From: Roseivirga sp. | GTDB lineage: Bacteria; Bacteroidota; Bacteroidia; Cytophagales; Cyclobacteriaceae | Direction: 5' to 3' | Length of the DNA stretch: 64,000 nucleotides | Assembly: GCA_021404565.1 (NCBI GenBank) | Contig: JAAWWF010000029.1 | Location: forward strand, 1 to 64,000 | In this document: piece by piece, positions 6,730 through 64,000 of the stretch | Numbering within the stretch: position 1 is the stretch's first letter | Layout: every line of letters begins with the position of its first letter | Notes under the pieces: model-generated | Databases searched by the model: none | What the model saw: the letters and a program-made list of their open reading frames with translations, nothing else | What the model was told of the DNA's origin: nothing | Made by a program: the position numbers and the translations under genes

Positions 6730-6842
6730 GACATGTGTTTTATATATGGATTAAAAAACATGATAAAGTTACGGGTCAAACTGCTTTCAAACCTGTTTCT
6801 ATGAAAAAACAGTCTTTTAGATTTTGCAGGGATTGAATTGCC

Positions 6843-7442: not shown

Positions 7443-7599
7443 TGGTTATGAAATTATGGGTTAGGGCATTGTCTTCTTTGTGAAGGTATGTGGAATTTGA
7501 TAACGACCGACCCATATGGACCAAAATAAGAAGAGAGGCAACAACAATGGAGATGAGTTTGCTGAGTATTTTTTGTCATTGACTCGTTATCGACCTTTC

Positions 7600-7986: not shown

Positions 7987-8030
7987 AGCTTTTACACATT
8001 AGGTAAGGCCATGAAGGTACAAAATATGAG

Positions 8031-8519
8031 TTATACCTGCAGCGTGCTTTTTCCCAATAGCTTTATATGAAGCGCTCGAATTCTTTCCAACTCAGCTGTT
8101 GCCAATTCGATTTGCTTGCATTCGAATTTTAAACACCGTTTGCCTTGTAAGGCCTCAGGCCATTCGGAATTGATCAGTTCTGTGGTCCAGGAAAAGGTGC
8201 CAATGCGCTTCGCAAGCTCTTCTATTGAAGTATTCAACTCATCGGACAGCTGTCCGTCAATCTTCAGGCTTAGTTTACCTAACCAGTTGTATTTCGATTT
8301 GATTGAGAATTGTTGCTCAGTTCTGCTATAAATCCTGATTTTACTGCCGTAACCTGAGATGGGTTTGGTATGCCTGATCTCATAGAATATTTCTGAATTC
8401 CCGACCATACGATAGGTAGTGAGTTGACCCTTTGCATAGCTGGTATTCCGTTCTTCTACTTTCAGGTTATGAGCGGCAGCAAAAACCTCGATATCTGTAT
8501 GGAGTTTTTTCCAATCCAT
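8031..8519 (-). CDS. Hypothetical cytoplasmic protein coupled to the amidohydrolase gene
   Basis: 162 residues from the ATG at 8519 (MDWKKLHTDIEVFAAAHNLK), which lies 4 bp after the amidohydrolase stop codon, suggesting translational coupling. No signal peptide or membrane helix. Beta-rich N-terminal half (FYEIRHTKPISGYGSKIRIY) and a helical C-terminus with LATAELERIRALHIKLLGKS. I do not recognise the family. Confidence 0.7.
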   Translation of the reverse strand: MDWKKLHTDIEVFAAAHNLKVEERNTSYAKGQLTTYRMVGNSEIFYEIRHTKPISGYGSKIRIYSRTEQQFSIKSKYNWLGKLSLKIDGQLSDELNTSIEELAKRIGTFSWTTELINSEWPEALQGKRCLKFECKQIELATAELERIRALHIKLLGKSTLQV

Positions 8520-8523
8520 AAAC

Positions 8524-9918
8524 TCAATTGCCTCTACCCACAGCCTTCTTCGCTTGCTCCAGCATAGCATCCAGAGCAGCTCTGTTGTGAACCTTACCTC
8601 GCAAAATGACCTTCTCTATTTCACGGGTATGGTTGATATCATCCACTGGATTGGCGTTGAGCAAAACCAGGCTGGCTGTTTTACCCGAGGTGACTGTGCC
8701 AAATTGGGACTCTTTCTTTTGAAAAATGGCCGCGTTGATGGTGGCTGCCTGAAGTGCCTGAAGAGTGGTCATACCGCCTTCTACCATAAGTTCCAGCTCA
8801 TCGTGCAGGCTGAAGCCCGGAAAGCAGTAAGGGTTGGGGTAGTCCGTTCCTGCTATGATTTTCACACCCTTATTGGCCAGCTTGCCCATCAATGAGAGCT
8901 GTAGCCTGAACTTGGTTTTTGAAGCTTCATAAAACTCAGGGGTACGGGACTTAAAACGGAAGTCATTGGCCGGATTCCAGGTACCGGTCATAAATGCCGG
9001 CAGGTAGCCCAGTCGTTCATCATTGGTAAAACTGCTGTCGGTGAGGTAGGCAATGCTACGCAATACCGTGAGGGTGGGTGAGAGCCACATATCGCTGTTG
9101 GCCATAACAGTAGCGAGTGAATCGAAGATGGCTTCATCAAAATTATCGGTCATCAGCTGCATACTTTTTTTGCTGAACTGACTGGGTTGAGCCCTGAGGG
9201 TCGCCAGGTCTGAATTACTGGCTTCCAGTATGCCATACATATGTTCACTGCTGTACTGACCCGCCTCCATAGCTTCCCAGATGCTCACTGAACCCGGGAT
9301 ATGGCCGGCAAAAGAGATGTCTTTCTCTTTGCTTCTTTGCGCTATGGCCATATAGGCATCTTTGGTCAGTCTACTGTAGACCTTCAGAAAGTCAACACCT
9401 GAAGCTATTTGCTTATCTACTTCAGCAATGGCCTCTTCGGGGTTGGCTACCCCTGATGAGCCCGGCCATATGGGCGGGACTCCATCGATGATGGCCCCGG
9501 CCGTATAGATATCGGGAGCAATCATTTCACCTGCTGTGGTTTGCTGGCGTACTGTATTGATCACATCGGGATTGCCCCACATCTCGCGCACTCCGGTGAT
9601 TCCATTGGCAATCAGCAGGGGATTGGAAAAGGTATAATTCCAGAAATAGTGTGTGTGCATGTCCCAAAGGCCCGGGATAAGAAACTTACCCGTTCCATCA
9701 ATCACTTCTGTTTCCGGTGAAGCCACCACTGATGAGCGATATATCTCGCCTATTTTGTCACCATCGATGGCCACAGTTTGATTGTGAAGAATTTTCCCCT
9801 TCTCTACATCTACAATGTTTACGTTTTGAATGATCAGGTCATGACTAATTTCCTGGGGCTGACAAGCGCAAACAGATAGAAGGAAAAGGAAGGGTAGAGA
9901 ATAGAAAAGGCGTCTCAT
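8524..9918 (-). CDS. Secreted amidohydrolase-family lipoprotein
   Basis: 464 residues from the ATG at 9918; the leader MRRLFYSLPFLFLLSVCACQ has a lipobox-like Cys near residue 19. It is a TIM-barrel amidohydrolase with a small beta domain formed by both ends (IIQNVNIVDVEKGKIL at the start, GKTASLVLLNANPVDDI at the end). Metal-binding signatures: LWDMHTH (HxH), SFAGHIPG, SSEHMYG and AGTDYPNP (final Asp). The lysine in DFLKVYS is at the place of the carbamylated Lys in two-metal members. Related proteins hydrolyse prolyl dipeptides or other cyclic amides, but the substrate cannot be assigned. First gene of a likely two-gene unit with 8031-8519. Confidence 0.9.
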   Translation of the reverse strand: MRRLFYSLPFLFLLSVCACQPQEISHDLIIQNVNIVDVEKGKILHNQTVAIDGDKIGEIYRSSVVASPETEVIDGTGKFLIPGLWDMHTHYFWNYTFSNPLLIANGITGVREMWGNPDVINTVRQQTTAGEMIAPDIYTAGAIIDGVPPIWPGSSGVANPEEAIAEVDKQIASGVDFLKVYSRLTKDAYMAIAQRSKEKDISFAGHIPGSVSIWEAMEAGQYSSEHMYGILEASNSDLATLRAQPSQFSKKSMQLMTDNFDEAIFDSLATVMANSDMWLSPTLTVLRSIAYLTDSSFTNDERLGYLPAFMTGTWNPANDFRFKSRTPEFYEASKTKFRLQLSLMGKLANKGVKIIAGTDYPNPYCFPGFSLHDELELMVEGGMTTLQALQAATINAAIFQKKESQFGTVTSGKTASLVLLNANPVDDINHTREIEKVILRGKVHNRAALDAMLEQAKKAVGRGN

Positions 9919-45556: not shown

Positions 45557-45684
45557 ACGGACGGTGTCCTTTGAGTATGATATAAACATTCGTACATCCT
45601 GGGAGCCACTGCCATTGGTTGTTCCATGTAGCGAAGGACACCGTCCCTGTATGCTCAGAGATTTCGAAGAATAACTCAGAGCGA
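45557..45684. repeat. 128-bp repeat, copy 1
   Basis: Aligns without gaps to 46086-46213 with roughly 85% identity by eye. It holds an inverted pair GGACGGTGTCCTT (45559-45571) and AAGGACACCGTCC (45634-45646), 13 bp each, and shares the central GCCATTGGTTGTTCCATG exactly with the other copy. No coding role is likely. With the second copy it brackets the membrane protein gene 45748-46050. Confidence 0.85.
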
Positions 45685-46085: not shown

Positions 46086-46213
46086 ACGGACGGTGTCCTT
46101 TGAGCAAACTATAAATATTTGTATATCATGGGAGCCCCTGCCATTGGTTGTTCCATGCAGTCAAGGACACCGTCCATTTATGCTCAGAGTTTTCAAAGAA
46201 TAACTCTGAGCGA
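46086..46213. repeat. 128-bp repeat, copy 2
   Basis: Second copy of the repeat at 45557, same orientation and length. Here a second hairpin, GCTCAGAG...CTCTGAGC, is intact at its right end (about 46182-46211), whereas in copy 1 those arms run in the same direction. Confidence 0.85.
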
Positions 46214-50372: not shown

Positions 50373-50750
50373 GGGTTAAATCGAATATAAATCGTTCGTA
50401 CGATGAAGTTGTCTAAATGTTCCTGTCTAATCTATCTTGCGGCTCAATTAGCAGGCCTTGAGATATCGGAATAAATAACTCTCAGCAAAACCTTTGCCCA
50501 CCCATCGACTGTGAGACTTATCGTGTACATAAAGTGTCCTTGGAAGTAAACCTGCCCAATCCCCTGATTTTCATCTGTATAATTCCTTTAAAAATCATTA
50601 AGTTTATATCAAAGGCATAGTGCACTAAAGTCAGATTAAATACTGCTTAGTTAAGCCTTTTTCCACCCCTTAGGGTTTGAGGTGAGATGGAGTTTTGAAC
50701 TTCTGAACCCTGAATTTAATAGTATTGATACTGAGATAAACCTGCAGCTA
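50373..50750. other. Intergenic region between divergent regulator and dehydrogenase genes
   Basis: 378 bp with the Crp-family promoter at the left and the mmsA promoter at the right. A short palindrome TCGTACGA (near 50398) sits right upstream of the regulator start codon and could be an autoregulatory site. No other feature recognised. Confidence 0.45.
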
Positions 50751-52220
50751 ATGGAAACTGAAACTATAAAATACCCTGAAGTAAAGAACTATGTAGATGG
50801 CCATTTTCTCTCCAATGGTCATCAAAATCTGGAAGTGTTTTCACCTATTGACGGGAAGGTGATCTCTCATGTTCCGCTATCAGGTATGAAAGATGTAGAT
50901 GCTGCTGTAGCGGCAGGTGAGAAAGCTTTTCCCGCCTGGTCTGCTATGCCTATCAAGGAGAGGGTCCAGATCTTTTACAGGTACAGAACACTGCTGGAAA
51001 AGCACAGGGAGGAGCTGGCCACACTGGTACATAAGGAGAATGGTAAGACCATGGGAGAGTCTTATGCCGAGGTGGATAAGAGTATCGAGTTGACAGAGTT
51101 TGCCTGTTCATTACCGCAACTGGTGGCGGGTGAAACCATGGAAGTGAGCAAGGGTGTGGAGTGCAGAATAGAACGCGCACCCCTGGGGGTGGTGGGCTTT
51201 ATCACCCCTTTCAACTTTCCTAATATGGTACCGCACTGGGCGGTTCCCAATGCTATCGTATTGGGGAATTCCATGATCCTGAAACCCTCAGAAATTGTGC
51301 CTATCAGTGCCATTCGCATGGCCGAACTATTGAAAGAGGCAGGTCTGCCCGATGGTGTTTTTAACCTGGTGCACGGAGACAGGGAAGTGGTGGAAGCCAT
51401 GTGTGACCATCCCGGTATCAAAGCCCTGGCTTTTGTGGGATCTACCCGTGTGGCGAAAATAGTGTATAAAAGAGCCACATCCAGTTTAAAAAGATGTCTG
51501 GCCCTGGGAGGGGCCAAGAACCACCTGATTGTTTTACCGGATGCCCATACGGAAATGACTGCCTCCAATGTGGCAGCTTCAATGTCAGGTTGTGCGGGGC
51601 AGCGCTGTATGGCTGCTGCGGCCATGGTGGGGGTAGGCGATATCGACCATATTGTAGACAAGCTCTGTGAGGAGGCTAAGAAAATAGTGGTCGGAGAAAA
51701 CCTGGGTTCCGTGATTTCCAAAGAAGCCAAAGAAAGAATCGAAGCTTATATCAACGAGGCAGAAAAAGCCGGAGCTAAAATTCTGGTAGACGGCCGAAAT
51801 GCCACTGTCGAGGGAAATGAAGGCGGTTATTATGTAGGCTCAACGGTAATAGATTATGTCACCCCTGATATGGCCATAGCCAAAGAAGAAGTATTCGGTC
51901 CCGTGATCTCGATTATTCGGGCCAAAGACCTGGATGAAGCCATAGACATTGAAAACAGCTCTGATTATGGAAATGCTGCTGCTGTATTTACGCAGAGTGG
52001 TGGTCTCGCCAGGTATGTGATGGAAAAAGCCAGTGCGGGTATGATTGGTGTGAATATAGGGGTGCCTGTACCGCGAGAACCCTTTTCTTTCGGAGGTTGG
52101 AACGAATCGAAATTCGGTACCTGTGACATTACCGGTAAGAGCTCCATCGAGTTCTGGACTCAGCTGAAGAAAACCACAACCAAGTGGAACCCGGAGGCAA
52201 GAACAAACTGGATGAGCTAG
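50751..52220 (+). CDS. mmsA: CoA-acylating (methyl)malonate-semialdehyde dehydrogenase
   Basis: 489 residues from the ATG at 50751. It oxidises malonate semialdehyde or methylmalonate semialdehyde to acetyl- or propionyl-CoA with NAD and CoA. Aldehyde dehydrogenase features: GFITPFNFPNMVPHWAVPNA (NAD site), ALAFVGSTRVAKIVYK, LGGAKNHLIVLPDA, the catalytic Cys in CAGQRCMAAAAMV (Cys286), and KEEVFGPVISIIRA. The QRCMA context and the absence of the usual active-site Glu are typical of this CoA-dependent branch. It is followed 60 bp later by an aminotransferase, so beta-alanine or a similar amino acid is the likely carbon source. Confidence 0.93.
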   Translation: METETIKYPEVKNYVDGHFLSNGHQNLEVFSPIDGKVISHVPLSGMKDVDAAVAAGEKAFPAWSAMPIKERVQIFYRYRTLLEKHREELATLVHKENGKTMGESYAEVDKSIELTEFACSLPQLVAGETMEVSKGVECRIERAPLGVVGFITPFNFPNMVPHWAVPNAIVLGNSMILKPSEIVPISAIRMAELLKEAGLPDGVFNLVHGDREVVEAMCDHPGIKALAFVGSTRVAKIVYKRATSSLKRCLALGGAKNHLIVLPDAHTEMTASNVAASMSGCAGQRCMAAAAMVGVGDIDHIVDKLCEEAKKIVVGENLGSVISKEAKERIEAYINEAEKAGAKILVDGRNATVEGNEGGYYVGSTVIDYVTPDMAIAKEEVFGPVISIIRAKDLDEAIDIENSSDYGNAAAVFTQSGGLARYVMEKASAGMIGVNIGVPVPREPFSFGGWNESKFGTCDITGKSSIEFWTQLKKTTTKWNPEARTNWMS

Positions 52221-52280: not shown

Positions 52281-53618
52281 ATGACTGAGAACGAACAAAT
52301 CATAAAGAATAACCTGGACCACACCATCTTCTCCTGGACGAAGCAGGGAGGGCTGAATCCCATGAATATAGAAAGGGCAGAAGGCGTCTACTTATATGAC
52401 AGAGATGGCAAGCGTTATCTGGATTTCTCTTCTCAGCTGATGAATGTCAATATTGGACATGGTGATTCCCGGGTGCGGGATGCTGTGGTTAAGCAGATGG
52501 ATGAAATCAGCTATATCTATCCGGGTGCGGCTACCAAAGTGCGTGGAGAACTGGGCAAGAAACTGGCAGAAATTGCCCCGGGCAGTCTGAACAAGACCTT
52601 TTTTACGCTGGGAGGAGCAGAGGCCATAGAAAATGCCATCAAGCTGGCCAGAACCTATACGGGCCGGCATAAGATCATAGCCACCTACCGCTCTTATCAC
52701 GGGGCAACCTATGGTGCCATGTCGGCAGGGGGTGATCCCCGGAAGCTGGCCGTAGACAGCCAGCAGGTACCGAATATTGTGCATATAGAAAATCCATATG
52801 CTTACCGTTGCCCATGGCATAGCGACACACCAGAGGAGTGCGCCCAAAGAGCAGCTGATCACCTGGAATGGGTGGTCAAGTATGAAGGTCCTGGTAACGT
52901 GGCCGCCATTTTACTGGAAGGAGAATCCGGCTCATCAGGTTGTATCAAATACCCTCCCGGTTACTGGGAAAGGGTGAAAGAGATTGCCGCCAAATATGGT
53001 ATTCTGATCATTGCTGACGAGGTAATGAGTGGCTTTGGCCGAACGGGTAAATGGTTTGGAGTAGATAACTATGATGTAGTGCCTGATATCTTATGCATGG
53101 CGAAAGGGCTCACCTCGGGTTATCTACCCCTGGGTGGCATTATGGTCAAAGATGAGATCATTAACCATTTTAATGACAAGGCTATTCCCCTGGGGCTAAC
53201 CTACTCAGGTCACGCAACAGCCTGCGCTGCGGCTTTAGCGGTACTCAACATTTATGAGGAAGACAACCTGATAGAGAATGCCGTGGCCATGGGCCGGTAT
53301 ATGGATGAGCAGGTAGCACTACTGATAGAAAAACACCCTTCCATTGGCGATTATCGAAATACAGGTTTGCTCGGTTGTATTGAGCTGGTAAAGAACCGGG
53401 AAACCAAAGAACCCATGGCGCCCTGGAATGCCAAACCTGATGAAATGGTCATTATGAATCATGTAGCTGCTAAAATCAGAGAGCTCGGTATGTTCACCTT
53501 TGTGCGCTGGAACTTTGTTTTCACGGTACCACCGCTTACGGTCACCAAAGCACAGATTGACGAAGGGCTGGCCATTATTTCAGAAGCGATCAGTATTGCA
53601 GATGGCTATTGTGAGTAA
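52281..53618 (+). CDS. Class III omega-aminotransferase (beta-alanine or taurine type)
   Basis: 445 residues. PLP lysine in MAKGLTSGYLPLGG (Lys275), PLP-binding ADEVMSGFGRTG, and substrate/phosphate sites FFTLGGAEAIENAIKLARTY and TYRSYHGATYGAMSAGG. The overall wording matches taurine/beta-alanine to pyruvate aminotransferases. With MmsA it would form beta-alanine -> malonate semialdehyde -> acetyl-CoA. The last 163 bp (53455-53617) are repeated at 55589-55751. Specific amino donor is an inference. Confidence 0.9.
   Translation: MTENEQIIKNNLDHTIFSWTKQGGLNPMNIERAEGVYLYDRDGKRYLDFSSQLMNVNIGHGDSRVRDAVVKQMDEISYIYPGAATKVRGELGKKLAEIAPGSLNKTFFTLGGAEAIENAIKLARTYTGRHKIIATYRSYHGATYGAMSAGGDPRKLAVDSQQVPNIVHIENPYAYRCPWHSDTPEECAQRAADHLEWVVKYEGPGNVAAILLEGESGSSGCIKYPPGYWERVKEIAAKYGILIIADEVMSGFGRTGKWFGVDNYDVVPDILCMAKGLTSGYLPLGGIMVKDEIINHFNDKAIPLGLTYSGHATACAAALAVLNIYEEDNLIENAVAMGRYMDEQVALLIEKHPSIGDYRNTGLLGCIELVKNRETKEPMAPWNAKPDEMVIMNHVAAKIRELGMFTFVRWNFVFTVPPLTVTKAQIDEGLAIISEAISIADGYCE
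53455..53617 (+). repeat. 163-bp direct repeat, copy 1 (end of the aminotransferase gene)
   Basis: Identical to 55589-55751 except for four bases, all in the last 50 bp, all synonymous (TCA/TCG, GCG/GCT, ATC/ATT, ATT/ATC). Copy 1 is the functional gene end here. Confidence 0.93.
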
Positions 53619-53728
53619 GGGGGATATCGTTTGTAGCTGATCCGAACAGTCAGTTTTAGACTCTAAATGGTCCTTACCCTTTACCAGCAATTACTTGGTT
53701 CTGATTTTGCTGCGTTTTGTTCAGGCTC

Positions 53729-55414
53729 TCAACTTTTATTAAGTCTGATAAAATCTTTGGCTTCCTTAGTTTCGGGTCTTTCACTTTGAGAGTTTTCAGT
53801 CAACCTGAGCAATTTTTCAAAATACATGGCGGTTTTCTTTCGATCACCCAACGCTTTTGCCGCTCTGGCTGCTCCATAAATACCGTTAAATCTGTTGGGG
53901 CTTAGCTCATTACTAACCTCGTAGGCGGTCAAAGCTTCAGCTGGTCGGTTTATGGCCATTAGAAGATCACCCAACAGTTCCCGGGCCGGTAGTACCTCTC
54001 CTGGTGTGACCGGATGTTTTTCCGTTTCGTTTTCCATATCCGCGGATGCCTTCATGAGGGTTAATGCCTCTTCATTATTGCCTTTGGCAACTTGTATCCA
54101 GGCTTGAGATGCCTTAACCTGAATGGCTACTTGATTGGCTTTGTATTGTTCATCGAGCTGTACGAGTTCCTTATGCAGAGCTACCATAATGGCCAAATCC
54201 TTTTCGGCTGAACTCAAATCTCCTACCCTCGAAGCTCCAAGCACCCTTGCAAAGTGATAAATCGATTTTTCCCATGGGAATTGATCCCATTGCATTTCTA
54301 CTTGATGGAGTTTGAGTTTGGCAGCTTTTGACCATTCTTTATTCTCCAAGACCATCCTTGCAGGAATGGCGGCAAAAGGGTAGGAAATCGAAGCATTGTT
54401 TCCCGATACCTTCTCTATTTTCTTAAAATACTCAAAAAGTTCGTTCGCACTTTCATTGTCTCCTTTTTGCAAATGGGCATAGAATAAGTAATCCAGTGCA
54501 TGAATTTCACTAGTCCAATTACCTTCCAGTTCAGTTTGTTCTGCATAACACATCGCTGAAGAGGCAGAATTTAAATTAGATTGGATGGATTCATCCCACA
54601 GACCTAGGCGCGTAAAAATATGGGAAGGCATGTGTTGTGCATGTGCTGAAGAGGGTGCGATCTGGGCATACTTTCTTGCCGTGGGAAGCGCCAAATTCGC
54701 TAATTTCGGGTTATCATAATTGTGAATGATATAGTGTGCAATCCCCGGGTGATTAGGCTGATCGGGAAAAATAGCCTCCAAAATGGCACCTGCTTTCCTT
54801 CGGTTTTTATATGTTTTATCCTTGGGGTCTGCTGTTGAATTCAGTGCCAGGGCATAAAAAATAGCAGCTTCTTTGTCATCGGGAAAATTTCGATAAATCT
54901 TGCCCATTTTTTCCTCCATCATAAGAGCCCTCTTTTGATGGGGTATTTCCTCCCATTTATTATAATATGCTCCTATGGCTTCCAGGTATTTATTTTCTCT
55001 TTCAGTTTTCTGAAGAGATTTAGCAATCATCAAAACCTTAGAGCCTTTTTCGAGCTCTTCTGAGGTAGGGGCTTTCCAAAGAGTATGATAGATGCTCATG
55101 GCTACTCCCCAGTATGCCATTGCACAATTGGGATCTTGGTCTATCACTTTTACAAATGCTTTTTCAGCCTCAGCATATTCGAAAGAGTGCAACAGTGAAA
55201 TGGCTAAATCGAATGATTCCTGAGTAGATGCACTACAAGAGGAAGCAAAACTCACATTACCGAATTGATTGCTACCGCATAGCGTTATGTTCCCCCGGAG
55301 TAGTTCAATGGATGCTAATTCCGGAACCTTTGACTTGTTACTTTTACAGCCAATGACCAATAGGTACACTAGAAAAACAAAAAGAAGATTAGGTACATAG
55401 GAAGACTTTATCAT
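53729..55414 (-). CDS. TPR lipoprotein
   Basis: 561 residues with lipoprotein leader (IKSSYVPNLLFVFLVYLLVIG then Cys). Then a TPR superhelix: AEAEKAFVKVIDQDPNCAMA, GIAHYIIHNYDNPKLANLAL, HAQHMPSHIFTRLGLWDESI, ALTAYEVSNELSPNRFNGIY. The HxxHxPSHIF segment is a recurring motif of an uncharacterised TPR family. The gene is enclosed between the two copies of the aminotransferase 3' end, so was probably acquired with that DNA. Function unknown. Confidence 0.85.
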   Translation of the reverse strand: MIKSSYVPNLLFVFLVYLLVIGCKSNKSKVPELASIELLRGNITLCGSNQFGNVSFASSCSASTQESFDLAISLLHSFEYAEAEKAFVKVIDQDPNCAMAYWGVAMSIYHTLWKAPTSEELEKGSKVLMIAKSLQKTERENKYLEAIGAYYNKWEEIPHQKRALMMEEKMGKIYRNFPDDKEAAIFYALALNSTADPKDKTYKNRRKAGAILEAIFPDQPNHPGIAHYIIHNYDNPKLANLALPTARKYAQIAPSSAHAQHMPSHIFTRLGLWDESIQSNLNSASSAMCYAEQTELEGNWTSEIHALDYLFYAHLQKGDNESANELFEYFKKIEKVSGNNASISYPFAAIPARMVLENKEWSKAAKLKLHQVEMQWDQFPWEKSIYHFARVLGASRVGDLSSAEKDLAIMVALHKELVQLDEQYKANQVAIQVKASQAWIQVAKGNNEEALTLMKASADMENETEKHPVTPGEVLPARELLGDLLMAINRPAEALTAYEVSNELSPNRFNGIYGAARAAKALGDRKKTAMYFEKLLRLTENSQSERPETKEAKDFIRLNKS

Positions 55415-55588
55415 GCTAAGAGATCTTAGTAGTTTAGCTATTTTGAAATCAAAGGTTTCAGCTAAAGTACAATAACGAAAAATGACCCCATTACCTAATG
55501 GGTTAAGCGATGTTTTCGAAGGTTTACGATATCTGTTTGATCCTTCAAAGCGTTTATTTCCAGAGAGATATGCCGAATTGGACCGATG

Positions 55589-55752
55589 TGAATCATGTAG
55601 CTGCTAAAATCAGAGAGCTCGGTATGTTCACCTTTGTGCGCTGGAACTTTGTTTTCACGGTACCACCGCTTACGGTCACCAAAGCACAGATTGACGAAGG
55701 GCTGGCCATTATTTCGGAAGCTATTAGTATCGCAGATGGCTATTGTGAGTAG
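55589..55752 (+). pseudogene. Truncated duplicate of the aminotransferase 3' end
   Basis: The last 53 codons of the aminotransferase (NHVAAKIRELGMFTFVRWNF onward to DGYCE and its stop) recur here in frame with 26 unrelated upstream codons (an ATG at 55510 opens the frame). PLP-binding and substrate residues are absent, so no function is expected. It is direct-repeat copy 2 of 53455-53617. The four differences are synonymous, which shows that this copy was under protein-level selection before it was placed here, as expected if it came from another strain's intact gene. Confidence 0.92.
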
Positions 55753-55759
55753 GGGAGGG

Positions 55760-56200
55760 TTAACCTTTGTAATCTGATTCAATAGCTTTTGCGAGCTTGA
55801 CAAGCCCCTGAGGAGCACTTGTTTCGAACATTTGCATGCCTTTTGTAAAACTGGAAGCTTTCGGCCCTTCCAGACTCAAGCGTTGGATGATGAGGGTCCG
55901 ACCTGAAGTGACAGACTCGAACATCATAACATTATAAAACACAGCACCATCCAACGGCATTTCGATTGTTGCTGAGCTTTCAGATTCAAGTTGTGTTATT
56001 CTCCATTGGGTTGGAGCCTGATCTGGAAGTTTAGTAGCGCCTGCCGTGTCTACAGCAAATGGACCATCGAGTTTGATCCACTCTACCGCTTTTCCCTCAA
56101 TGCGTTCCCAATTAGATACATCGGTCCAAAAAGACCACACAAAAGACTTGTGTGCACTGCATTCAACAGAGTGTTCAAATTGCCAGACATTTTCGTTCAT
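55760..56200 (-). CDS. SRPBCC (polyketide cyclase-like) protein
   Basis: 146 residues, START/Bet v1-like fold: WQFEHSVECSAHKSFVWSFW, VSNWERIEGKAVEWIKLDG, ATIEMPLDGAVFYNVMMFES and a long C-terminal helix (SAPQGLVKLAKAIESDYKG). Cytoplasmic, likely to bind a hydrophobic ligand. Starts the same-strand run of accessory genes and ends 8 bp from the duplicated aminotransferase fragment. Confidence 0.8.
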   Translation of the reverse strand: MNENVWQFEHSVECSAHKSFVWSFWTDVSNWERIEGKAVEWIKLDGPFAVDTAGATKLPDQAPTQWRITQLESESSATIEMPLDGAVFYNVMMFESVTSGRTLIIQRLSLEGPKASSFTKGMQMFETSAPQGLVKLAKAIESDYKG

Positions 56201-56454
56201 AAGCCAAGTTTCATTTGCCGCATTAAGACATTAGATCTGAATTTTTATTAGCCCCTTTCCTTACCCTCGTTTGTAACGAGGGTTCGAGAGTTTCGCGTTT
56301 TCAACGCAGTATTAACCTGATATTAGTGGTTTTTGGAGCATAATCATATTGTTCTTGCAGAAGAGCAATAGCATTGCAAACCTGTCTGCCGATAGGTAGA
56401 TGCTGATTTCGAATCTACTCGTTGCAAACGAGTAGGAGGGATATTGTCAACCTC
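56201..56454. other. Intergenic region with several short palindromes
   Basis: 254 bp. Short inverted pairs: CCCTCGTTTGTAACGAGGG near 56264, GCGTTTTCAACGC near 56295, and CTACTCGTTGCAAACGAGTAG at about 56415-56435. The last is inside a 40-bp unit that recurs at 61329. Confidence 0.6.
56399..56438. repeat. 40-bp dispersed repeat, copy 1
   Basis: GATGCTGATTTCGAATCTAC continues into a CTCGTTGCAAACGAG palindrome and a GTAGGAG end. It aligns over 40 bp with 61329-61368 with five differences. Both lie between accessory genes. Confidence 0.75.
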
Positions 56455-57345
56455 TTATTCATCTACAACTATCGCTACAGGGTACTTTTGATATCCGAAT
56501 GCTTTGATTTGCTCATTCAGCCTTAGAAGTATTTCGTTAAATCCCTCGTAAGAGTCTTCGTAGGCCAACGACCCTGTTTCCTTGAGTCCGTCCAAGATGT
56601 TCAATTCTCCAATTTTTTCGAATTGGTCTTTTATTTTGAGTAAATCCCCGTGTTCAATCCCATGGACTGAGAAACCGAATTGTAAATTTTGCTGTCTTTT
56701 CAGGTAATTCCAGATGTTTTCAATTCCTGGTTGTGAAGCCTTGATTTGTTCCGGGCTAAACCCACTCGCTATTGCCCTGCCTAAAATTTCAGATTGCTTA
56801 ATATCGTTTAGAGTCGGTTTGATTGGCGATTTGTAAGTAAAGGGTACAAGCCAGTAATCGCAGCTCCCTCTGTATTGATCAACTTTTACACAAGTTACAG
56901 CGCCATATTCACCATTTGAAAGTTTGCAGGTCAGGACGGAATTCTCGTTAAAAATAAGATGGCTTATTTTTCTGAACTTTTTCCGTTTTCGTATTTTCTC
57001 GTTTGTCTTTTCAATTTTGGACAGATACCTTTTTAGCACCGCTTTCCTTGATTTTCCATCTTTTTCGGAATACTTCGACCATTCTTTTACACAAGCATCT
57101 CTGCTAATTATTTCTTTAATGTAAGCCAGTCTTTCCGAATTCATGAGCCCTATTTCCCAATAGGCGAGTCCACAACTTGTTATGTATATTTCGTTGTCGA
57201 ATGTGTCAGGGTTGTTCTCCTGAAAAATAGGGAATTCGTTAACGATAAAGTCTAAATCAGCGCCACGATCATATAAATCCATGATGCCCCAGTAAGTATC
57301 ATGGGCTCTGTCTCCATCAATTATTTTAGTTCCATCAGTTGCCAT
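56455..57345 (-). CDS. Hypothetical protein
   Basis: 296 residues, cytoplasmic. N-terminal helical part (AHDTYWGIMDLYDRGADLDF), a basic helix (KIEKTNEKIRKRKKFRKISH), then a beta segment VLTCKLSNGEYGAVTCVKVD, which loosely resembles the start of Imm26-type immunity proteins, and a helical C-terminus. The Imm26 idea is weak. Gene lies alone in the accessory island; the next gene upstream is 41 bp away on the same strand. Confidence 0.6.
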   Translation of the reverse strand: MATDGTKIIDGDRAHDTYWGIMDLYDRGADLDFIVNEFPIFQENNPDTFDNEIYITSCGLAYWEIGLMNSERLAYIKEIISRDACVKEWSKYSEKDGKSRKAVLKRYLSKIEKTNEKIRKRKKFRKISHLIFNENSVLTCKLSNGEYGAVTCVKVDQYRGSCDYWLVPFTYKSPIKPTLNDIKQSEILGRAIASGFSPEQIKASQPGIENIWNYLKRQQNLQFGFSVHGIEHGDLLKIKDQFEKIGELNILDGLKETGSLAYEDSYEGFNEILLRLNEQIKAFGYQKYPVAIVVDE

Positions 57346-57386
57346 TCAGCTTTCTTGACGTCAAGTCTGTTCTTTGTATCACCGGT

Positions 57387-57953
57387 CTATTCGAGCATCC
57401 TGTAAATGGACATAATCGCACCATTTGGGCTGGATTCGGATTTAAGGAGAGATAGTTTCTTGTTTGCTACACCTTCTGTAAACAGTCGTTTTCCGGAGCC
57501 GATGATTACTGGAAAGGTCCAAAGCCGCAATTCGTCCACCAGGTCGTTTTTTAGCAGTTCCTGAATCAGTTGCCAGCTGCCGTGAACTTGTAACAAAGGT
57601 CCATCTTGGGCCTTAAGCTTAGATATCTCCCTGGCAACATTTCCACTGATGACAATCGAGTTTTGCCAGTCCAATTCCGAGAGGCTGTTAGTTATGACAT
57701 ACTTAGTCATATCATTGAGAGGAGAATCTACTGATGAATTGTGCTCGCTAAAAAGCTCATAAGTCTTGCGTCCAAGAAGAAGGTCATATGGCTCTGACAT
57801 GGCTTCTAGTGCAACCTGTTCCATCACTTCATCCCAGTGACTCCTGGCCCAGCCACCCTTGGTAAAGCCTCCTGAAGTATCCTCTTCCGGTATACTCGGA
57901 GCTTGCATCACACCATCCAGTGATTGAAATACCAGTATCGCTAATTTTCTCAT
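57387..57953 (-). CDS. Dihydrofolate reductase/RibD C-domain family protein
   Basis: 188 residues. Features: LAILVFQSLDGVMQAP, LLLGRKTYELFSEH, KYVITNSLSELDWQNSIVIS, LLQVHGSWQLIQELLKNDLV and ELRLWTFPVIIGSGKRLF. This is the RibD_C/YwjB-type NADPH-dependent reductase fold, often annotated dihydrofolate reductase family. Substrate unknown. ATGA overlap of 4 bp with the upstream gene. Confidence 0.88.
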   Translation of the reverse strand: MRKLAILVFQSLDGVMQAPSIPEEDTSGGFTKGGWARSHWDEVMEQVALEAMSEPYDLLLGRKTYELFSEHNSSVDSPLNDMTKYVITNSLSELDWQNSIVISGNVAREISKLKAQDGPLLQVHGSWQLIQELLKNDLVDELRLWTFPVIIGSGKRLFTEGVANKKLSLLKSESSPNGAIMSIYRMLE

Positions 57954-58552
57954 TTAGTCGATTTAGCTTTCATTTTGGCCAGATAGGCTTTTGTTTTCTC
58001 TGGTAACTCAATAGCCTCATGTTCAAAGTCCGATGCCCAGTCAAATTCATAAACAGTGAAGCCATTGTAGCATTCAGTAGACATTAGTCCAAAGGCTTTT
58101 AATACCATTAAGAAACGCTCCATACCGCCATATGGATAGTTGCCCGTAGAAAATTCGACCTGGCCAGAGCTCTCATCGATCTTGTCAAGATTGTCCATAT
58201 CTACCTCAAAGCCATATTCCAGATAATTCAAAATGGAAAGCGTCTCCAGCATGCCCAGGACACCTGCTTTATCATTATCCACTTGCAGGTACCTTTTCAA
58301 AAAAGCATTGGCATAGTCTGGTATTAGTTCTTTGTATCTCTTCAGTTCCTGTTCATCCTCATCTAAAAGGCTATGTAGCTCTTTTACTCCCTTATCTACC
58401 TCTTCAGGAGTCATATTATCCCAGTCAAATTCAGGCACTTCCTCTTCCTCAAATTCAAAACCGGGTTGCCTTACCTTTACCATATGTGCATAGAGCTTTT
58501 CAAAGGCCATAAACTTAGATGAGTCTTGTATGTCGAATTTGATATAGAGCAT
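57950..58552 (-). CDS. Acidic hypothetical protein co-translated with the RibD-like gene
   Basis: 200 residues. Strongly acidic middle (FEFEEEEVPEFDWDNMTPEE), helical, ending KTKAYLAKMKAKSTK. No signal or helix for the membrane. No family recognised. Overlaps 57387-57953 by ATGA, which makes an operon. Confidence 0.7.
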   Translation of the reverse strand: MLYIKFDIQDSSKFMAFEKLYAHMVKVRQPGFEFEEEEVPEFDWDNMTPEEVDKGVKELHSLLDEDEQELKRYKELIPDYANAFLKRYLQVDNDKAGVLGMLETLSILNYLEYGFEVDMDNLDKIDESSGQVEFSTGNYPYGGMERFLMVLKAFGLMSTECYNGFTVYEFDWASDFEHEAIELPEKTKAYLAKMKAKSTK

Positions 58553-58604
58553 TTAGTTTGTTTTCCTGGTATCGATAAAAAGGCAATCTAAGAGTGTTTC
58601 ACTC

Positions 58605-59468
58605 TCAATAAGAATTTTTGGGTTCATATATTCTTCGAACCACAGGTCGGTTTTGTTCATCAAACTCGGTGAGTGTAAGGATACTGAAAGCATCCAAAAT
58701 GTGGAGTTCCGATATGACATTTCCTCGATCATCGTATTCAGATGTTATGGTGCTTGTTCCAAGATCCAGTGAGGCCATCACTGATTTTATTTCACGATCG
58801 AGTTCATCATATTCAGTCATGGAGACTGAGGTTGTATCTCTATTGGATATACTAACTCTCTGAATGATATTTCCCCGCTCATCAAATTGGTTATAAGTGA
58901 ATGTCGTATCAAATTTGGTTACTCTGGCAAGTTGAAATGAAAGCTCATCCCGCTCCAGGGTCATTGCGTTGATAAGTCTGTTGTTACCATCGTAGTAATA
59001 GTGATTAACAGATTTGAGGGTATCATACCCGGTTATTTCTCCCTGATCGTTATAGCCCGGAATCATGGCCAGAGATTCTTGTTTTTGTAAAAGACTGTTC
59101 TCATAGAAAGAGAGAAAGTGACTTCTCAATGTACCATTGACAGAATCAATTTCTTCAATGAGCAATCCCTCGGAACTAAACTTGTTAATGGCATGTGACC
59201 ATTTGATTGTATCTCCATCCGTCAGGTTATACCAAACTTCATCTAAAAGCAGTGTATCCATATATTGTTGTGCGATTATCGAGGTATCCGTATAACTGGA
59301 GACTCCCATATGTTGGGTTGAATAAACAATCTGAATTTTTTCATTCCCATTTTCTGAATGAAAAATATTTTCCGTACTACGAAGCGCCCAATCACCATCC
59401 TGATCCTGCGTATTCGATGTACAGGAAAAGACAGACAGCAGGATGATTGGTAGAATGTATCGGGTCAT
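58605..59468 (-). CDS. Lipoprotein with YD/RHS-like repeat strands
   Basis: 287 residues; lipoprotein leader MTRYILPIILLSVFSCTSNT (Cys at residue 16). The C-terminal half shows short units of the RHS/YD type: YNQFDERGNIIQRVSIS, YDELDREIKSVMAS and YDDRGNVISELHIL. Likely extracytoplasmic. Too short to be an RHS toxin; no toxic tip domain. Function unknown. Confidence 0.7.
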   Translation of the reverse strand: MTRYILPIILLSVFSCTSNTQDQDGDWALRSTENIFHSENGNEKIQIVYSTQHMGVSSYTDTSIIAQQYMDTLLLDEVWYNLTDGDTIKWSHAINKFSSEGLLIEEIDSVNGTLRSHFLSFYENSLLQKQESLAMIPGYNDQGEITGYDTLKSVNHYYYDGNNRLINAMTLERDELSFQLARVTKFDTTFTYNQFDERGNIIQRVSISNRDTTSVSMTEYDELDREIKSVMASLDLGTSTITSEYDDRGNVISELHILDAFSILTLTEFDEQNRPVVRRIYEPKNSY

Positions 59469-59614
59469 GTCTTAGAGAAGAAGTATTTCTGCTGGTGGTT
59501 AGTGTGTCAATGATATCGAAAAAGGATGGTTTGACCTATTGATAAAAGGGTAGAAATCACACCTTAGTTTAAAGTACGTTTTATAAAAACTATCGAACCT
59601 GTTCTTACAAAGCT

Positions 59615-59944
59615 TCACTCGACTAGTTCTTTAAACAGTGACTGGAACAAATTCAGCGATTCTAATTTTTCCTTTAGTTCAGCCGAAGTCAGAAGTTTCA
59701 GATGAACCATATCAGCACCTTCTTCACCATCATAGGCAAGGCTTAATTCAATTTCATATTGTTGACATTTTAGCACATAGTGACTCCAGACTCCTTTTTC
59801 ATCATTAGTGGTTGCCAGTTCTTCTTTGATGAGGTCTCTTTCTTCTGCGCTTAACTGATAGTCGGCCAAATGAGAAAGCATGCTTAGAACCGGGTTGAGT
59901 TTATTGCTCCATATCCAAAAACCATATTTGAAATCCTTATTCAT
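59615..59944 (-). CDS. Hypothetical protein, second in a pair
   Basis: 109 residues. All-helical, no signal; contains FWIWSNKLNPVLSMLSHLAD and a beta strand FEIELSLAYDGEEGADMVHL-like region (read as YEIELSLAYDGEEGADMVHL). No family recognised. Overlaps the upstream gene by 8 bp, so both are co-translated. Confidence 0.6.
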   Translation of the reverse strand: MNKDFKYGFWIWSNKLNPVLSMLSHLADYQLSAEERDLIKEELATTNDEKGVWSHYVLKCQQYEIELSLAYDGEEGADMVHLKLLTSAELKEKLESLNLFQSLFKELVE

Positions 59945-60284
59945 GTTTCAATTCCGGGTTTTCAAAATCAATCAGTTCTTTTTCGAATATGGGGTTTTCG
60001 TTGAGGAGGGAGTCAATTCGATTTATTAGTCTCGGATTTCCCCTGGCTATCAAAAAAGCTAAACCCCAATGATCTATTGATATTTCAAATGCTCCCAAAT
60101 CACATTTTGCCTGGACAAGGACTTCATCGTTCATCCACAAATCCTCGGAACCAGTGAATACCGTATTCAGAGGTGCGAGAGCCGCTTCAAGATTTGAAAT
60201 GAAGTTATCGTTTTCAAGTCTCGAAGTGAACTTGATTAAGAGTTCTTTGCTTTCATATGCCGGTCGGAGGTGGTATTTGGTCAT
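59937..60284 (-). CDS. Hypothetical protein, first in a pair
   Basis: 115 residues from the ATG at 60284 (MTKYHLRPAYESKELLIKFT), chosen because the longer frame has no recognisable start. An alpha/beta protein with ISNLEAALAPLNTVFTGSED and KCDLGAFEISIDHWGLAFLI. Unknown family; resembles small immunity-type proteins in size and composition only. Confidence 0.6.
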   Translation of the reverse strand: MTKYHLRPAYESKELLIKFTSRLENDNFISNLEAALAPLNTVFTGSEDLWMNDEVLVQAKCDLGAFEISIDHWGLAFLIARGNPRLINRIDSLLNENPIFEKELIDFENPELKHE

Positions 60285-60396
60285 TTTTATTTGAAGGGGA
60301 TTGGATGTACGGATATTAAAGAAAATGGAGGTTTTAACCAATTCAAGCCCAAATTATTCCATGCATTTCCTCGTCCTCATTTCAAGCGAGGTAGTC

Positions 60397-61239
60397 TCAA
60401 TTCTGTTTATTCTGTACAACTTCTTTTTTATCTATTACTTCGAGTATAAAATTCACCAAAGGGCTATCTGTTTGCCCTAATTTATGCGCTATTTCGTAAT
60501 GATTTAGTCGTTCATACTCATAGTATTCTATGTGGGCCAGGGGCTTATTTTTAGCATACATAGACCGGGATTGCTCAATAAAGAAACTTGTCTCATGAGA
60601 TCCCACACTCAACAGGACAGGGCATTTTACAACAGATAAATCCTGGTTGGAGGCACTATACTCCTCCACGTCCTTTTCATTTAATCGCAGGACCTCGTTG
60701 AGGTAGCTGTTTTTGATAGGTGCTAAATCAAATATGCCACTGAGGCTACAAATGGCCCGAATGCCGGATCTTAAATTTTCATTCATTAAATAAGTCATTA
60801 AAGCCAAATGACCACCCGCTGAATGTCCGGAAAGAATGATTTGATCCGGGTTGCCATTATAACGGTGAGCCTCTTTCGTGATCCAGGCTATCCCATCTCA
60901 TATGTCGTTTAAAAGCGTACCCATATTGACCGATGGAATAAGCCTGTAGTTCAATACACATACAGTTATGTTATTCTCTAAAAAGGGTTCAGCTATAAAA
61001 CTGTAACTCTTCTTATCCAGTGCGCGCCAATAACCACCATGGATAAATACCAGAACAGGGGCGTTGCTAACACTTGCGGGGAAGATGTCCACAGTTTGTA
61101 ATGGGGCTGATCCGTATTTTTGATCTGAATAGCAAGGGTAGGAATGTTTTACTCTTTGGGATTCCTTCTCATTAATATCTAAGAACTTTTGATAGTCAGG
61201 ATGACGTAACCGAAAGTTTAACTGGTTTTCTGGGGTCAT
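60397..61239 (-). pseudogene. Alpha/beta hydrolase (kynurenine formamidase-like) with in-frame TGA
   Basis: From the ATG at 61239 the frame runs 113 codons to a TGA at 60898-60900 and continues in the same frame for 167 more. Joined, it is a 280-residue hydrolase: oxyanion-hole motif VFIHGGYWRALDKKS, then after the stop DGIAWITKEAHRYNGN, nucleophile elbow SGHSAGGHLALMTY and catalytic His in ERLNHYEIAHKLG. The length and motifs fit the kynurenine formamidase/BD-FAE-like group. The break reads LLNDI*DGIAW where Arg is usual, consistent with CGA to TGA. Not translated as one protein unless read through. Confidence 0.82.
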
Positions 61240-61328
61240 TACTTTTATCTACTTGGCTAGAGCCCCTCAATATACGGATGATAAGAAAAACAGGTACACA
61301 ACATTTTGAAACTGATTACCGAAAGAGA

Positions 61329-61368
61329 GACGCTGATTTCAAATCTGCTCGTTGCAAACGATCAGGAG
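61329..61368. repeat. 40-bp dispersed repeat, copy 2
   Basis: GACGCTGATTTCAAATCTGC then a CTCGTTGCAAACGATCAG core and GGAG end. Same orientation as 56399-56438. Confidence 0.75.
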
Positions 61369-61384
61369 AATGGCAGGGGAAGTT

Positions 61385-61505
61385 TTGTACAGTGAAAAAA
61401 ACCAAAGAGATTTTCTTGTACAGACCTTGTACAAGAAAATTATATAGAAAAAAAGCTTGTACAGTATGTGTACAAAGAAATTTTTGGAGCGAAAAAACTT
61501 GTACA
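61385..61505. repeat. Cluster of six TTGTACA motifs
   Basis: Motif TTGTACA or its complement occurs at 61385, 61416, 61427, 61457, 61469 (complement) and 61499, in about 120 bp. Two positions extend to the palindrome TTGTACAA. No gene lies here; the nearest is the hypothetical gene ending at 61528. Confidence 0.75.
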
Positions 61506-61527
61506 AAATTGCTCGTCAGTTCGCACA

Positions 61528-61992
61528 TCAAATTGCGACCTGTTGAACCTTTCGTTTTGATTCAATTTTGGCGGTTAACAAGTCGAAATCTACAGTTTTG
61601 GTTTTGTGGATTGGACTGTCGTACCCATAGACCCTGTTGTTCGAAAAAGATCTTAGATCAAGGACATCAAAAAACTGTTCGTAAGTCGTTAGTCCGAGCG
61701 TTTCAATATTGAGAACGGCTAACCTTTGTAGAGTTCCTTCCCCAAAAGTCCGGACCCAAAGAGGAATCACAGCCATTGTTCCTTCGAAATTCCAAAGTGC
61801 TGGACCCCCACACCAAGTCCCCAGGTTGACGTTCTGTCCTGCCTCGTTTGTCCAGTGGCAATGTCCACCAAGTGGCGCTCCCATTGCTATTTCACCTAGT
61901 TTGGAATATACAAGTTTGTCCCTTCCGTTAGATGCTGTTAACTGTAAGTCTGAGTTGTTAAAATTCCAGGGATTTGGGTAGTGGTTTGTCAT
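61528..61992 (-). CDS. Hypothetical protein
   Basis: 154 residues, cytoplasmic by prediction. MTNHYPNPWNFNNSDLQLTA start, HCHWTNEAGQNVNLGTWCGG (two His and Cys residues in a turn-rich segment), then IPLWVRTFGEGTLQRLAVL and TTYEQFFDVLDLRSFSNNRV. No family recognised. Confidence 0.65.
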   Translation of the reverse strand: MTNHYPNPWNFNNSDLQLTASNGRDKLVYSKLGEIAMGAPLGGHCHWTNEAGQNVNLGTWCGGPALWNFEGTMAVIPLWVRTFGEGTLQRLAVLNIETLGLTTYEQFFDVLDLRSFSNNRVYGYDSPIHKTKTVDFDLLTAKIESKRKVQQVAI

Positions 61993-62061
61993 TATGCGAT
62001 TTAAGGACTAAGGATGGTAACTTACGGCTAAAAGCCATTCAATATATGGGAGAGCATTTGA

Positions 62062-62691
62062 TCAATAGGACAGGCTTAGAATGCTTTCCCCTTTTTTATA
62101 TTGATCAACAAAGGTCTTTTTGAATAGAAGTTTTCTTTTCTCCACTTCCTCTTGGGTATCACCTTCCCAGTAAAAATCCACACAAGTTAGAGCGTATTCA
62201 AAATCTTGCCTCGAAGTGAAATTATAAATGTGTTCTAATTCCCCAAAATGCTCCCAAAACATTGCATTCATTCCTTTTCTTTGGTAACCAACTTCGTCAG
62301 TGTAGAATCCTACCCTTTGTTCCAGCTCGTAGTAATCAATCACTTTCCAGTGAAGCCCTCTCCATGTATGTTGTAAGAGTTTGTCAAAGCCTTGCTTCAC
62401 GGCCCATTGCTTAACTTTGATTTCTGGCTGATCACCATCTTCCAACATAATGATGGCCACATCACTATTTTTGAACCAATCTCGTGCCTTATCCAGCTTT
62501 GAAGGATCGTCTACGATTATTGCTGATTGTATTCTCTTACCACAATCAATCTTCTGGATAAACTTGTCGAAATAACTGAAGGGTACATCAAAGCCTGAGA
62601 ATTCATCCTCTATAATGCCCGGAGTTTCACCAGGACCAATAAACCGGGGCCTCAATAGGGTAGCTTTTTCGTGATAAATATCTAATCCCAT
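62062..62691 (-). CDS. Hypothetical protein
   Basis: 209 residues beginning MGLDIYHEKATLLRPRFIGP, then an alpha/beta core (RIQSAIIVDDPSKLDKARDW, SDVAIIMLEDGDQPEIKVKQ) and a helical C-terminus (FTSRQDFEYALTCVDFYWEG). MGLDIY-type starts are found in other uncharacterised bacterial proteins. No function assigned. Confidence 0.65.
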   Translation of the reverse strand: MGLDIYHEKATLLRPRFIGPGETPGIIEDEFSGFDVPFSYFDKFIQKIDCGKRIQSAIIVDDPSKLDKARDWFKNSDVAIIMLEDGDQPEIKVKQWAVKQGFDKLLQHTWRGLHWKVIDYYELEQRVGFYTDEVGYQRKGMNAMFWEHFGELEHIYNFTSRQDFEYALTCVDFYWEGDTQEEVEKRKLLFKKTFVDQYKKGESILSLSY

Positions 62692-62949
62692 TTCATTCTG
62701 ATTTCAACAAGATCTGTGTTACACTGATAATTGTAAATATCCCATTTTCCGAAGAGCCGAGCACTAGTTATATAAAGTGTTTTCTGGCTTCTGTTTTATC
62801 CGATAAAATTCCTGTAATGAGTATCGCCTTTACTTAGAGTTCCAACAGTCCCCGCTTTGTCCCGGCCCCGTTACCTCAATTTTTTGTAGCTTATGGAATG
62901 TGCCTTTTTTAAAAGGAGGCGCCATTTTTTTAACAAACCTCAGATTTTT

Positions 62950-64000
62950 ATGAATGAAGAGATCATTGAGTTGACCGAAGATGTTTCTGCTTCACCGCTC
63001 TATAGCGAAGATTTTGCCCCGGTACCTGCGGCAAAGCGCACCTGGAACCGCACCAACATTGCTGCCATCTGGGTAGGAATGGCCGTCTGTATCCCTACCT
63101 ATATGCTGGCCTCCAGCCTGATCGACCAGGGAATGAACTGGTGGCAGGCTTTACTGACCATCCTTTTGGGGAATTTGATTGTGCTGGCCCCGATGATTCT
63201 CAATGCCCATGTGGGCACTAAGTACGGCATTCCCTTGCCTGTTTTCCTCAGAATGAATTTTGGTATTGATGGGGCCGTATTGGCTTCTCTATTAAGAGGA
63301 CTGGTAGCCTGTGGCTGGTTTGGCATTCAAACCTGGATTGGCGGAGCGGCCATCTATCAGCTGGTATTGGTATTTATACCCGGTCTCGCCAATAGCCCCT
63401 TTCTGGGAAGTTTTATGGGCATCAACCTGGCTCAGCTCGTTTGCTTTCTGCTCTTCTGGGCCATGAATATCTATATCATTTATAAGGGCATCGATTCCAT
63501 CAAAGTATTTGAAACCTGGGCAGCTCCCTTTCTACTGGTGATCGGGGCCTTTATGCTGGGCTGGGCCTGGTGGGAGGTAGGTTCTATGGGTGCCATCCTC
63601 GATGCGTCCTACACGCTTTCTCAAAATGCTGATGTGAACTTCTGGAAGATTTTCTGGCCTAATCTCACAGCCATGGTAGGTTTCTGGGCAACCCTCTCCC
63701 TCAACATTCCCGACTTTACGCGCTATGCCAAATCTCAAAAAGATCAGATGGCAGGGCAGGCCCTGGGCTTACCCACCACCATGGTGTTCTATAGCTTTAT
63801 CGGTATAGCCGTGACCAGCGCCAGTGTGCTGATTTTCGGAGAAGCCATTTGGGACCCTGTAGTGCTGCTTGGCAAATTTGATTCAGCCTTCGTGGTCATC
63901 CTGTCCATGCTGGGACTGACCATTGCGACACTTTCTACCAACATTGCCGCGAATGTAGTGGCCCCGGCCAATGGCTTTGCCAACATAGCACCCAAGAAGA
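62950..64000 (+). CDS. NCS1 family nucleobase/hydantoin-type cation symporter, 3' end beyond window
   Basis: The ATG at 62950 opens a frame that reaches the window edge (350 codons). It starts MNEEIIELTEDVSASPLYSE, followed by RTWNRTNIAAIWVGMAVCIP (the family's first helix), helices with VFLRMNFGIDGAVLASLLRG, LVACGWFGIQTWIGGAAIYQ, MVGFWATLSLNIPDFTRYAK and LSTNIAANVVAPANGFANI (helix 8-10 region). NCS1 carriers bring in uracil, cytosine, thiamine, allantoin or hydantoins with Na+ or H+. Its place beyond the beta-alanine genes makes a pyrimidine-type substrate reasonable. The substrate-specific residues cannot be judged alone. Confidence 0.93.
   Translation, partial: MNEEIIELTEDVSASPLYSEDFAPVPAAKRTWNRTNIAAIWVGMAVCIPTYMLASSLIDQGMNWWQALLTILLGNLIVLAPMILNAHVGTKYGIPLPVFLRMNFGIDGAVLASLLRGLVACGWFGIQTWIGGAAIYQLVLVFIPGLANSPFLGSFMGINLAQLVCFLLFWAMNIYIIYKGIDSIKVFETWAAPFLLVIGAFMLGWAWWEVGSMGAILDASYTLSQNADVNFWKIFWPNLTAMVGFWATLSLNIPDFTRYAKSQKDQMAGQALGLPTTMVFYSFIGIAVTSASVLIFGEAIWDPVVLLGKFDSAFVVILSMLGLTIATLSTNIAANVVAPANGFANIAPKK

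Follow-up and report, generated by a model that had tools for sequence, protein, structure and literature searches.

A repeated aminotransferase 3' end beside a TPR lipoprotein gene in Roseivirga sp. and the possible arrival of accessory genes behind intact metabolic genes

How can a lipoprotein gene come to lie directly behind a metabolic gene that stays intact, and why is the end of that metabolic gene found a second time on the far side of the newcomer? This question is raised by a stretch of 64,000 nucleotides (the window) from contig JAAWWF010000029.1 of Roseivirga sp. (GCA_021404565.1), in which the 3' end of a class III aminotransferase gene and its downstream repeat bracket a gene for a TPR lipoprotein. 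One can rarely see how accessory genes, among them defence systems, reach such places behind core genes when no integrase is involved. We favour, with a probability of about 0.6, the reading that acquired DNA recombined at the aminotransferase 3' end, supplied a new gene end together with its cargo, the TPR gene, and stranded the native end beyond it, and that like events occurred at three other genes of the same genome.

Anatomy of the repeated aminotransferase end

The following features define the locus (positions are those of the window).

52281..53618, plus strand: intact class III aminotransferase of 445 amino acids (PF00202), with orthologues about 80% identical at the three loci L022-L024
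53455..53618, plus strand: copy 1, forming the 3' end of the intact gene and read as the incoming allele for at least its final 37 bp
53619..53728, no strand: spacer 3' of copy 1, whose weak similarity to the 3' end of the SRPBCC gene behind copy 2 may reflect homology
53729..55414, minus strand: TPR lipoprotein of 561 amino acids, the putative cargo, with matches to Pfam TPR families and a lipobox-like VIGC near the N terminus (by eye)
55415..55588, no strand: 5' flank of the TPR gene, together with the left junction to copy 2; guanine plus cytosine (GC) content 36.8%
55589..55752, plus strand: copy 2, the stranded aminotransferase 3' end, read as the native end

The segment 53455-53618 recurs as a direct repeat at 55589-55752, 2,134 bp from start to start, and common to both copies are two bases of codon 392, the codons 393-445 and the stop (53 full codons, 164 bp). 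The first 127 bp are identical. The differences (copy 1/copy 2) are A/G at 53582/55716, G/T at 53588/55722, C/T at 53591/55725 and T/C at 53597/55731, all of them synonymous (TCA/TCG, GCG/GCT, ATC/ATT and ATT/ATC in codons 434, 436, 437 and 439), and a fifth in the stop codon (53618/55752), which reads TAA in copy 1 and TAG in copy 2. The initial annotation of this DNA had described the repeat with its four synonymous, 3'-clustered differences, which was confirmed, but it had missed the one in the stop codon. The confinement of all five to the last 37 of 164 positions has a probability of about 0.0005 (0.0016 for the four without the stop). In silico, the same 445 residues are encoded whether the aminotransferase carries the end of copy 1 or that of copy 2; residues 393-445 being the same from either end, the repeat holds no alternative C-terminal domain of the kind found in Rhs and type VI secretion system (T6SS) orphan ends.

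Copy 2 starts abruptly at 55589, and the sequence before it has no strong or extended similarity to the aminotransferase sequence upstream of 53455. Unlike in a local tandem duplication, adjacent sequence was not duplicated along with the gene end, apart from a weak similarity of about 100 bp past both stops (score 71, equalled by 1 of 4,974 random window pairs). For the stretch after copy 2 another window position scored 96, which is probably a self-overlap. The similarity was considered as a decayed SRPBCC 3' end, which looked suggestive against the random pairs but failed against the homologue in G009, a genome of the same genus, since the stretch after copy 1 matched the 3' end of that homologue no better than background. 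If secure, it would strengthen the reading of two alleles brought together.

When 19 genomes of the genus were searched at the DNA level, the 167 bp turned up two times in the Roseivirga genome itself, which was one of the 19, and in none of the other 18, and the next-best match to the aminotransferase end in the window has 22 bp. No third copy of the end was found in the DNA between the aminotransferase and the next conserved gene, a transporter of the NCS1 family, or just before that gene. Moreover, a tblastn search of 80 loci (L022-L101), several of which end near the gene, detected no second aminotransferase copy, and the self-comparison of these loci gave wholly coding matches of at most 28 bp, longer ones being mainly in spacers; L055 was excepted, as this locus stops with the gene and shows nothing but its self-match. 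At the four differing sites the codons of L022-L024 are mixed (by eye).

Downstream 3'-end fragments at three further genes

We scanned 2.47 Mb of the 8.57-Mb genome (29%), which yielded 1,839 open reading frames (ORFs) of at least 120 amino acids, the longest picked first. Fragments were matches of at least 90 bp with at least 75% identity within 15 kb, and a 3' fragment had to stop no more than 45 bp short of the ORF's 3' end. A 3'-end fragment was found for 4 of the 1,839 ORFs, every one in direct orientation and downstream:

Window 52281..53618: aminotransferase; fragment of 163 bp, 97.5% identical
C14:76960-78360: phosphatidylserine decarboxylase; fragment of 330 bp, 94.8% identical (stranded 3' end pair at 5405-5775 and 7020-7389 of locus L123, G000:C14:69901-89800)
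C14:80983-83382: MacB/FtsX-like permease; fragment of 91 bp, 84.6% identical
C15:3971-5251: threonine synthase; fragment of 455 bp, 89.7% identical, ending 29 bp before the stop (gene, Septu-like PtuA/PtuB pair and stranded 3' end at 3971-9058 of locus L144, G000:C15:1-20000)

No 5'-end fragment and no inverted one passed these thresholds as a counted fragment among the 1,839 ORFs. Further matches in the own genome that were not counted comprise 40 internal ones, of which 35 were classed as paralogues and five fall in very long ORFs, a 3' match linking two giant ORFs, and the reverse match of the threonine synthase fragment's own ORF. As controls, 80 loci of other Bacteroidota gave a 3'-end fragment in none of 654 ORFs (five internal ones and one 5' fragment at 75% identity were seen), and 141 kb of G009 gave no fragment of any kind in 112 ORFs.

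The DNA enclosed at these loci is diverse. Threonine synthase and its fragment enclose genes for an HNH protein and an AAA ATPase, whose PADLOC matches are PtuB- and PtuA-like and which are probably a Septu-type defence pair; a TPR protein lies behind the permease and a 132-residue protein without family behind the decarboxylase. The inserts have a GC content of 35-42% vs 45-50% in the four genes. No integrase family was found among the scanned insert proteins (two at threonine synthase, one each at the decarboxylase and the permease; the scan did not include a plus-strand ORF that overlaps both the fragment and the insert at the decarboxylase). Near the decarboxylase, the stretches 3799-4074, 4693-4968 and 6865-7007 of L123 are repeats of each other.

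The divergence between gene and fragment is dominated by synonymous changes at all four loci, with 4 of 4 coding differences at the aminotransferase, 14 of 17 at the decarboxylase, 9 of 14 at the permease and 32 of 43 at threonine synthase (stop difference excluded). Each difference was judged singly against the codon of the intact gene, and the expectation was calculated for random substitution with a transition weight of 2. Pooled, 59 of 78 differences are synonymous, whereas unconstrained change would give about 25% (P about 1e-20, assuming independent substitutions); for the aminotransferase alone, synonymous-only divergence without constraint has a P of 0.004. Hence, the earlier claim that the two ends are not a local duplicate diverged in place is probably correct. 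At the decarboxylase, 17 of 330 bp differ within the gene, and the next 40 bp past the stop contain 11 substitutions and a one-base gap. Since a fragment decaying in place should show neither the synonymous bias nor such a jump behind the stop, the pattern fits two coding alleles from different lineages brought together better than decay in place. The threonine synthase alignment additionally contains three single-base gaps, as would be expected for an older scar.

The threonine synthase locus also bears on which of the two ends is native. The DNA from about 320 bp past the fragment is also found downstream of thrC in G009, about 9 kb away, where it includes an ankyrin-like gene (named from its translation) in the same relative orientation behind a different gene set. 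Because the DNA beyond the fragment is syntenic in G009, the fragment is probably the native end, and the end of the intact gene probably came with the cargo. Copy 2 at the aminotransferase likewise stands on the side of the gene that follows in relatives, the NCS1 transporter, yet 7.2 kb of other DNA intervene. The native status of copy 2 and the date of the insertion are inferred.

The TPR gene and the block behind the aminotransferase

The interval 53619-55588 comprises 1,970 bp, and the TPR gene is the only ORF of at least 80 amino acids that lies wholly inside, which bears out the initial annotation in finding one TPR lipoprotein gene and nothing else between the copies. The GC comparison that it had proposed across the region gave 42% for the TPR gene vs 49% for the aminotransferase. 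A TPR match at an expectation (E) value of 0.001 was obtained in 10 genomes out of 39, counting the own one. Two of the matching genomes come from the remaining 18 of the genus, and both matches are weak (best-match identity 24% and 29%). Order-wide the gene is patchy, and matches at E 1e-60 or better were present in 25 of 390 genomes, again with the own one; two of these 25 belong to the same family outside the genus, and the best match, 58% identical, came from another family. No TPR match was found at L022-L024, and a viral contig scan with the TPR protein, made with regard to phage origin, gave no relative. The TPR gene is most simply a horizontally gained gene.

The TPR segment is merely the left end of a larger block, which is seen from the surrounding genes.

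50682..52220, plus strand: aldehyde dehydrogenase of the methylmalonate-semialdehyde dehydrogenase family, preceding the aminotransferase (TIGR01722, 518.9 bits vs a cut-off of 448.5; 83-86% identical in L022-L024)
53619..62949, likely genes on the minus strand: block of 9.3 kb parting the aminotransferase from the NCS1 transporter
55760..56200, minus strand: SRPBCC/polyketide-cyclase-like protein, convergent with copy 2 (PF10604 reaches 21.1 bits, short of the cut-off of 27.4; G009 homologue 61% identical)
62950..64000, plus strand, continuing to about C14:64392: NCS1 nucleobase:cation symporter

The genes behind the aminotransferase were inspected in L022, L023 and L024. In these three closest orthologous loci the aldehyde dehydrogenase and aminotransferase genes are followed by NCS1 after 0 (L022), 2 (L023) and 1 (L024) genes. 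On the Roseivirga contig, NCS1 is followed by homologues of the L024 genes for an SSS transporter, a dihydropyrimidinase-like and a beta-ureidopropionase-like protein (the last two named from translations), and NCS1 and these next three genes are 76-86% identical to L024. Judging from these neighbours, the aminotransferase and its companions look like an operon for reductive pyrimidine breakdown that is split here by the block. The initial annotation had taken the roughly 2 kb between the copies as the insertion; it is larger, because aminotransferase and NCS1 are nearly contiguous in L022-L024, from which the whole block 53619-62949 is absent. It had also predicted relatives in which a single aminotransferase end is followed directly by the DNA found after copy 2. 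L022-L024 indeed have a single end, but NCS1 follows after 0-2 genes; the empty site is not seen there because everything up to 62949 is missing.

The likely genes of the block code for the TPR protein, the SRPBCC protein, a RibD_C-domain protein and unknowns, besides an esterase-like frame in two pieces. This frame (60397-61239) consists of two ORFs (60397-60807 and 60898-61239), of which only the second has a weak esterase-family match, and is probably a broken gene. The block also carries a direct repeat (56372-56438 and 61302-61368, 78% alike) with a palindromic core in its first copy (CTCGTTGCAAACGAG), perhaps a dispersed repeat element, and a cluster of several TGTACA-type motifs at 61380-61510 (by eye). 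Elsewhere in the window, 45557-45684 and 46086-46213 form a direct repeat of 128 bp (87% identical) outside ORFs of at least 80 amino acids.

Proposed mechanism, rival explanations and known systems

The favoured course of events would be as follows. Horizontally acquired DNA, possibly taken up by transformation or a similar route, would have carried the TPR gene and, beside it, the corresponding aminotransferase 3' end of a related strain or species. By homologous recombination in the last part of the gene, this incoming end would have been linked to the resident 5' part, which kept the gene intact, and the far end of the incoming DNA would have joined within resident codon 392, stranding the resident's last 53 codons beyond the cargo; the order of these joinings is presumed. 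The last 37 bp of copy 1 would then represent the incoming allele and copy 2 the native end, and in the 127 identical bp both copies might have received their bases from one parent or have been converted. A circular intermediate and a single crossover would yield the same anatomy. The same kind of event would have left the scars at the three other genes in the examined part of the genome. Furthermore, RecA-dependent recombination via the 127-bp direct repeat could loop the cargo out again and leave the aminotransferase protein unchanged. A ComEC-type competence protein is present, which says little on DNA uptake, because this family is widespread (10 of 14 control genomes have it too, including E. 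coli).

Three other histories were weighed against this one. The product closely resembles that of site-specific integration at a gene 3' end, as known from the prophage e14 in icd, where the attachment site carries a substitute end: 165 bp and 54 residues are involved there, compared with 164 bp, 53 full codons and four synonymous differences here. An integrase gene would have been lost since, with the TPR gene left behind. However, no integrase was found in the aminotransferase insert, where the TPR gene is the sole ORF of at least 80 amino acids lying wholly inside, and no integrase family was found among the scanned proteins of the other three inserts; moreover, four unlike target genes with repeats from 91 to 455 bp would need different integrases. 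We consider this explanation unlikely. Alternatively, the 3' end might have been duplicated locally downstream, the TPR gene might have entered between the copies, and gene conversion might later have homogenized the first 127 bp. The identical tract followed by clustered differences (P about 0.0005) does look like a conversion tract, but a functionless fragment should not gather synonymous changes alone, and the adjacent downstream DNA has no second copy apart from the weak similarity past the stops, so that we regard this course as a still less probable one.

An artefact of assembly was also taken into account, in which an empty site, with the aminotransferase beside the SRPBCC gene, and a 2.1-kb circle or another locus were misjoined via the 127-bp tract. 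k-mers shorter than the identical tract would be common to both states, hence short reads could presumably confuse them. However, the copies differ at five sites and the flanks differ on both sides. Such an error is very improbable, because three more loci have the same shape, with repeats that are more diverged and harder to confuse. The reading of an incoming gene end with cargo and a stranded native end thus accounts best for the observations in our view, although several points weigh against it. Among the own-genome matches, ten that reach a 5' end were treated as paralogues and not counted, their partner being situated in an ORF with at least 60% of the length. The controls are too small to prove enrichment over other genomes, since the rate in the own genome predicts only about 1.4 cases in 654 ORFs. 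The count of four loci was not blind, because the decarboxylase and threonine synthase pairs had already been noticed in a rawer earlier scan, and three of the four loci are on a single contig, C14. At threonine synthase, G009 as outgroup matches the intact copy at 29 positions, the fragment at 21 and neither at 12, which favours neither copy clearly, and the match as aligned falls short of the stop by 29 bp. The aminotransferase itself contributes just four synonymous differences, and a genome with the aminotransferase and the DNA after copy 2 but without the TPR gene was not found. Finally, identity over the first 127 bp is not produced by a simple single crossover if the donor is divergent.

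Collectively, our data suggest that in this bacterium incoming DNA sometimes carries a tail of the target gene along and thereby inserts without breaking that gene. It is a more far-reaching and rather doubtful idea that the lineage has a general, integrase-independent way of gene gain, in which accessory genes travel beside core metabolic gene 3' ends that serve as homology arm. If it were true, each insertion, and possibly each excision as well, would be silent for the host gene, and defence systems and lipoproteins would spread in this way, leaving stranded ends as insertion scars of different ages. A stranded end that differs mainly by synonymous changes records the site, which end is probably old, and the rough distance of the donor; with four scars in 29% of one genome, all downstream and direct, the process can be counted in other genomes.

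Our literature search, in the parts of the sources available to us, found no description of duplicated gene ends beside inserts or islands apart from the T6SS arrays mentioned below, and the pattern may still be published. Among the orphan rhs genes of Salmonella, a full-length gene is reported to be followed by a downstream fragment that shares 522 bp with it at 95% identity and resembles a displaced fragment (PMC3967940). The succession of a full-length gene and a downstream fragment of the same gene is alike in our case; however, the rhs fragments are described as encoding alternative C-terminal domains, whereas the same residues are encoded by both ends here. In Escherichia coli K-12, the insertion of e14 in icd is reported to have duplicated 165 bp, or 54 C-terminal residues, with 12 exchanges, all but two of which are synonymous, and e14 itself, a prophage of 15 kb, has a putative integrase gene (PMC11148124, PMC2973815). 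The shared features are an insert near the 3' end of a metabolic gene, an end restored by incoming DNA, a direct duplication on the far side and mostly synonymous differences. In contrast to e14, the insert here has 2 kb with a single lipoprotein gene, no integrase was found in it, and similar arrangements exist at three other genes.

The T6SS immunity-gene arrays of Vibrio cholerae offer another comparison, for which homology-facilitated illegitimate recombination has been proposed (PMC5361080). According to this proposal, a homology anchor on one side is combined with an illegitimate join on the other, and older genes and 3' ends are shifted downstream, as we propose for the aminotransferase. 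The anchor would correspond here to the 163-bp shared gene end, and to such ends at the three other loci. The two cases differ in what is shifted: effector ends and immunity genes in the V. cholerae arrays as described, and here the end of the same metabolic gene, which encodes the same protein sequence.

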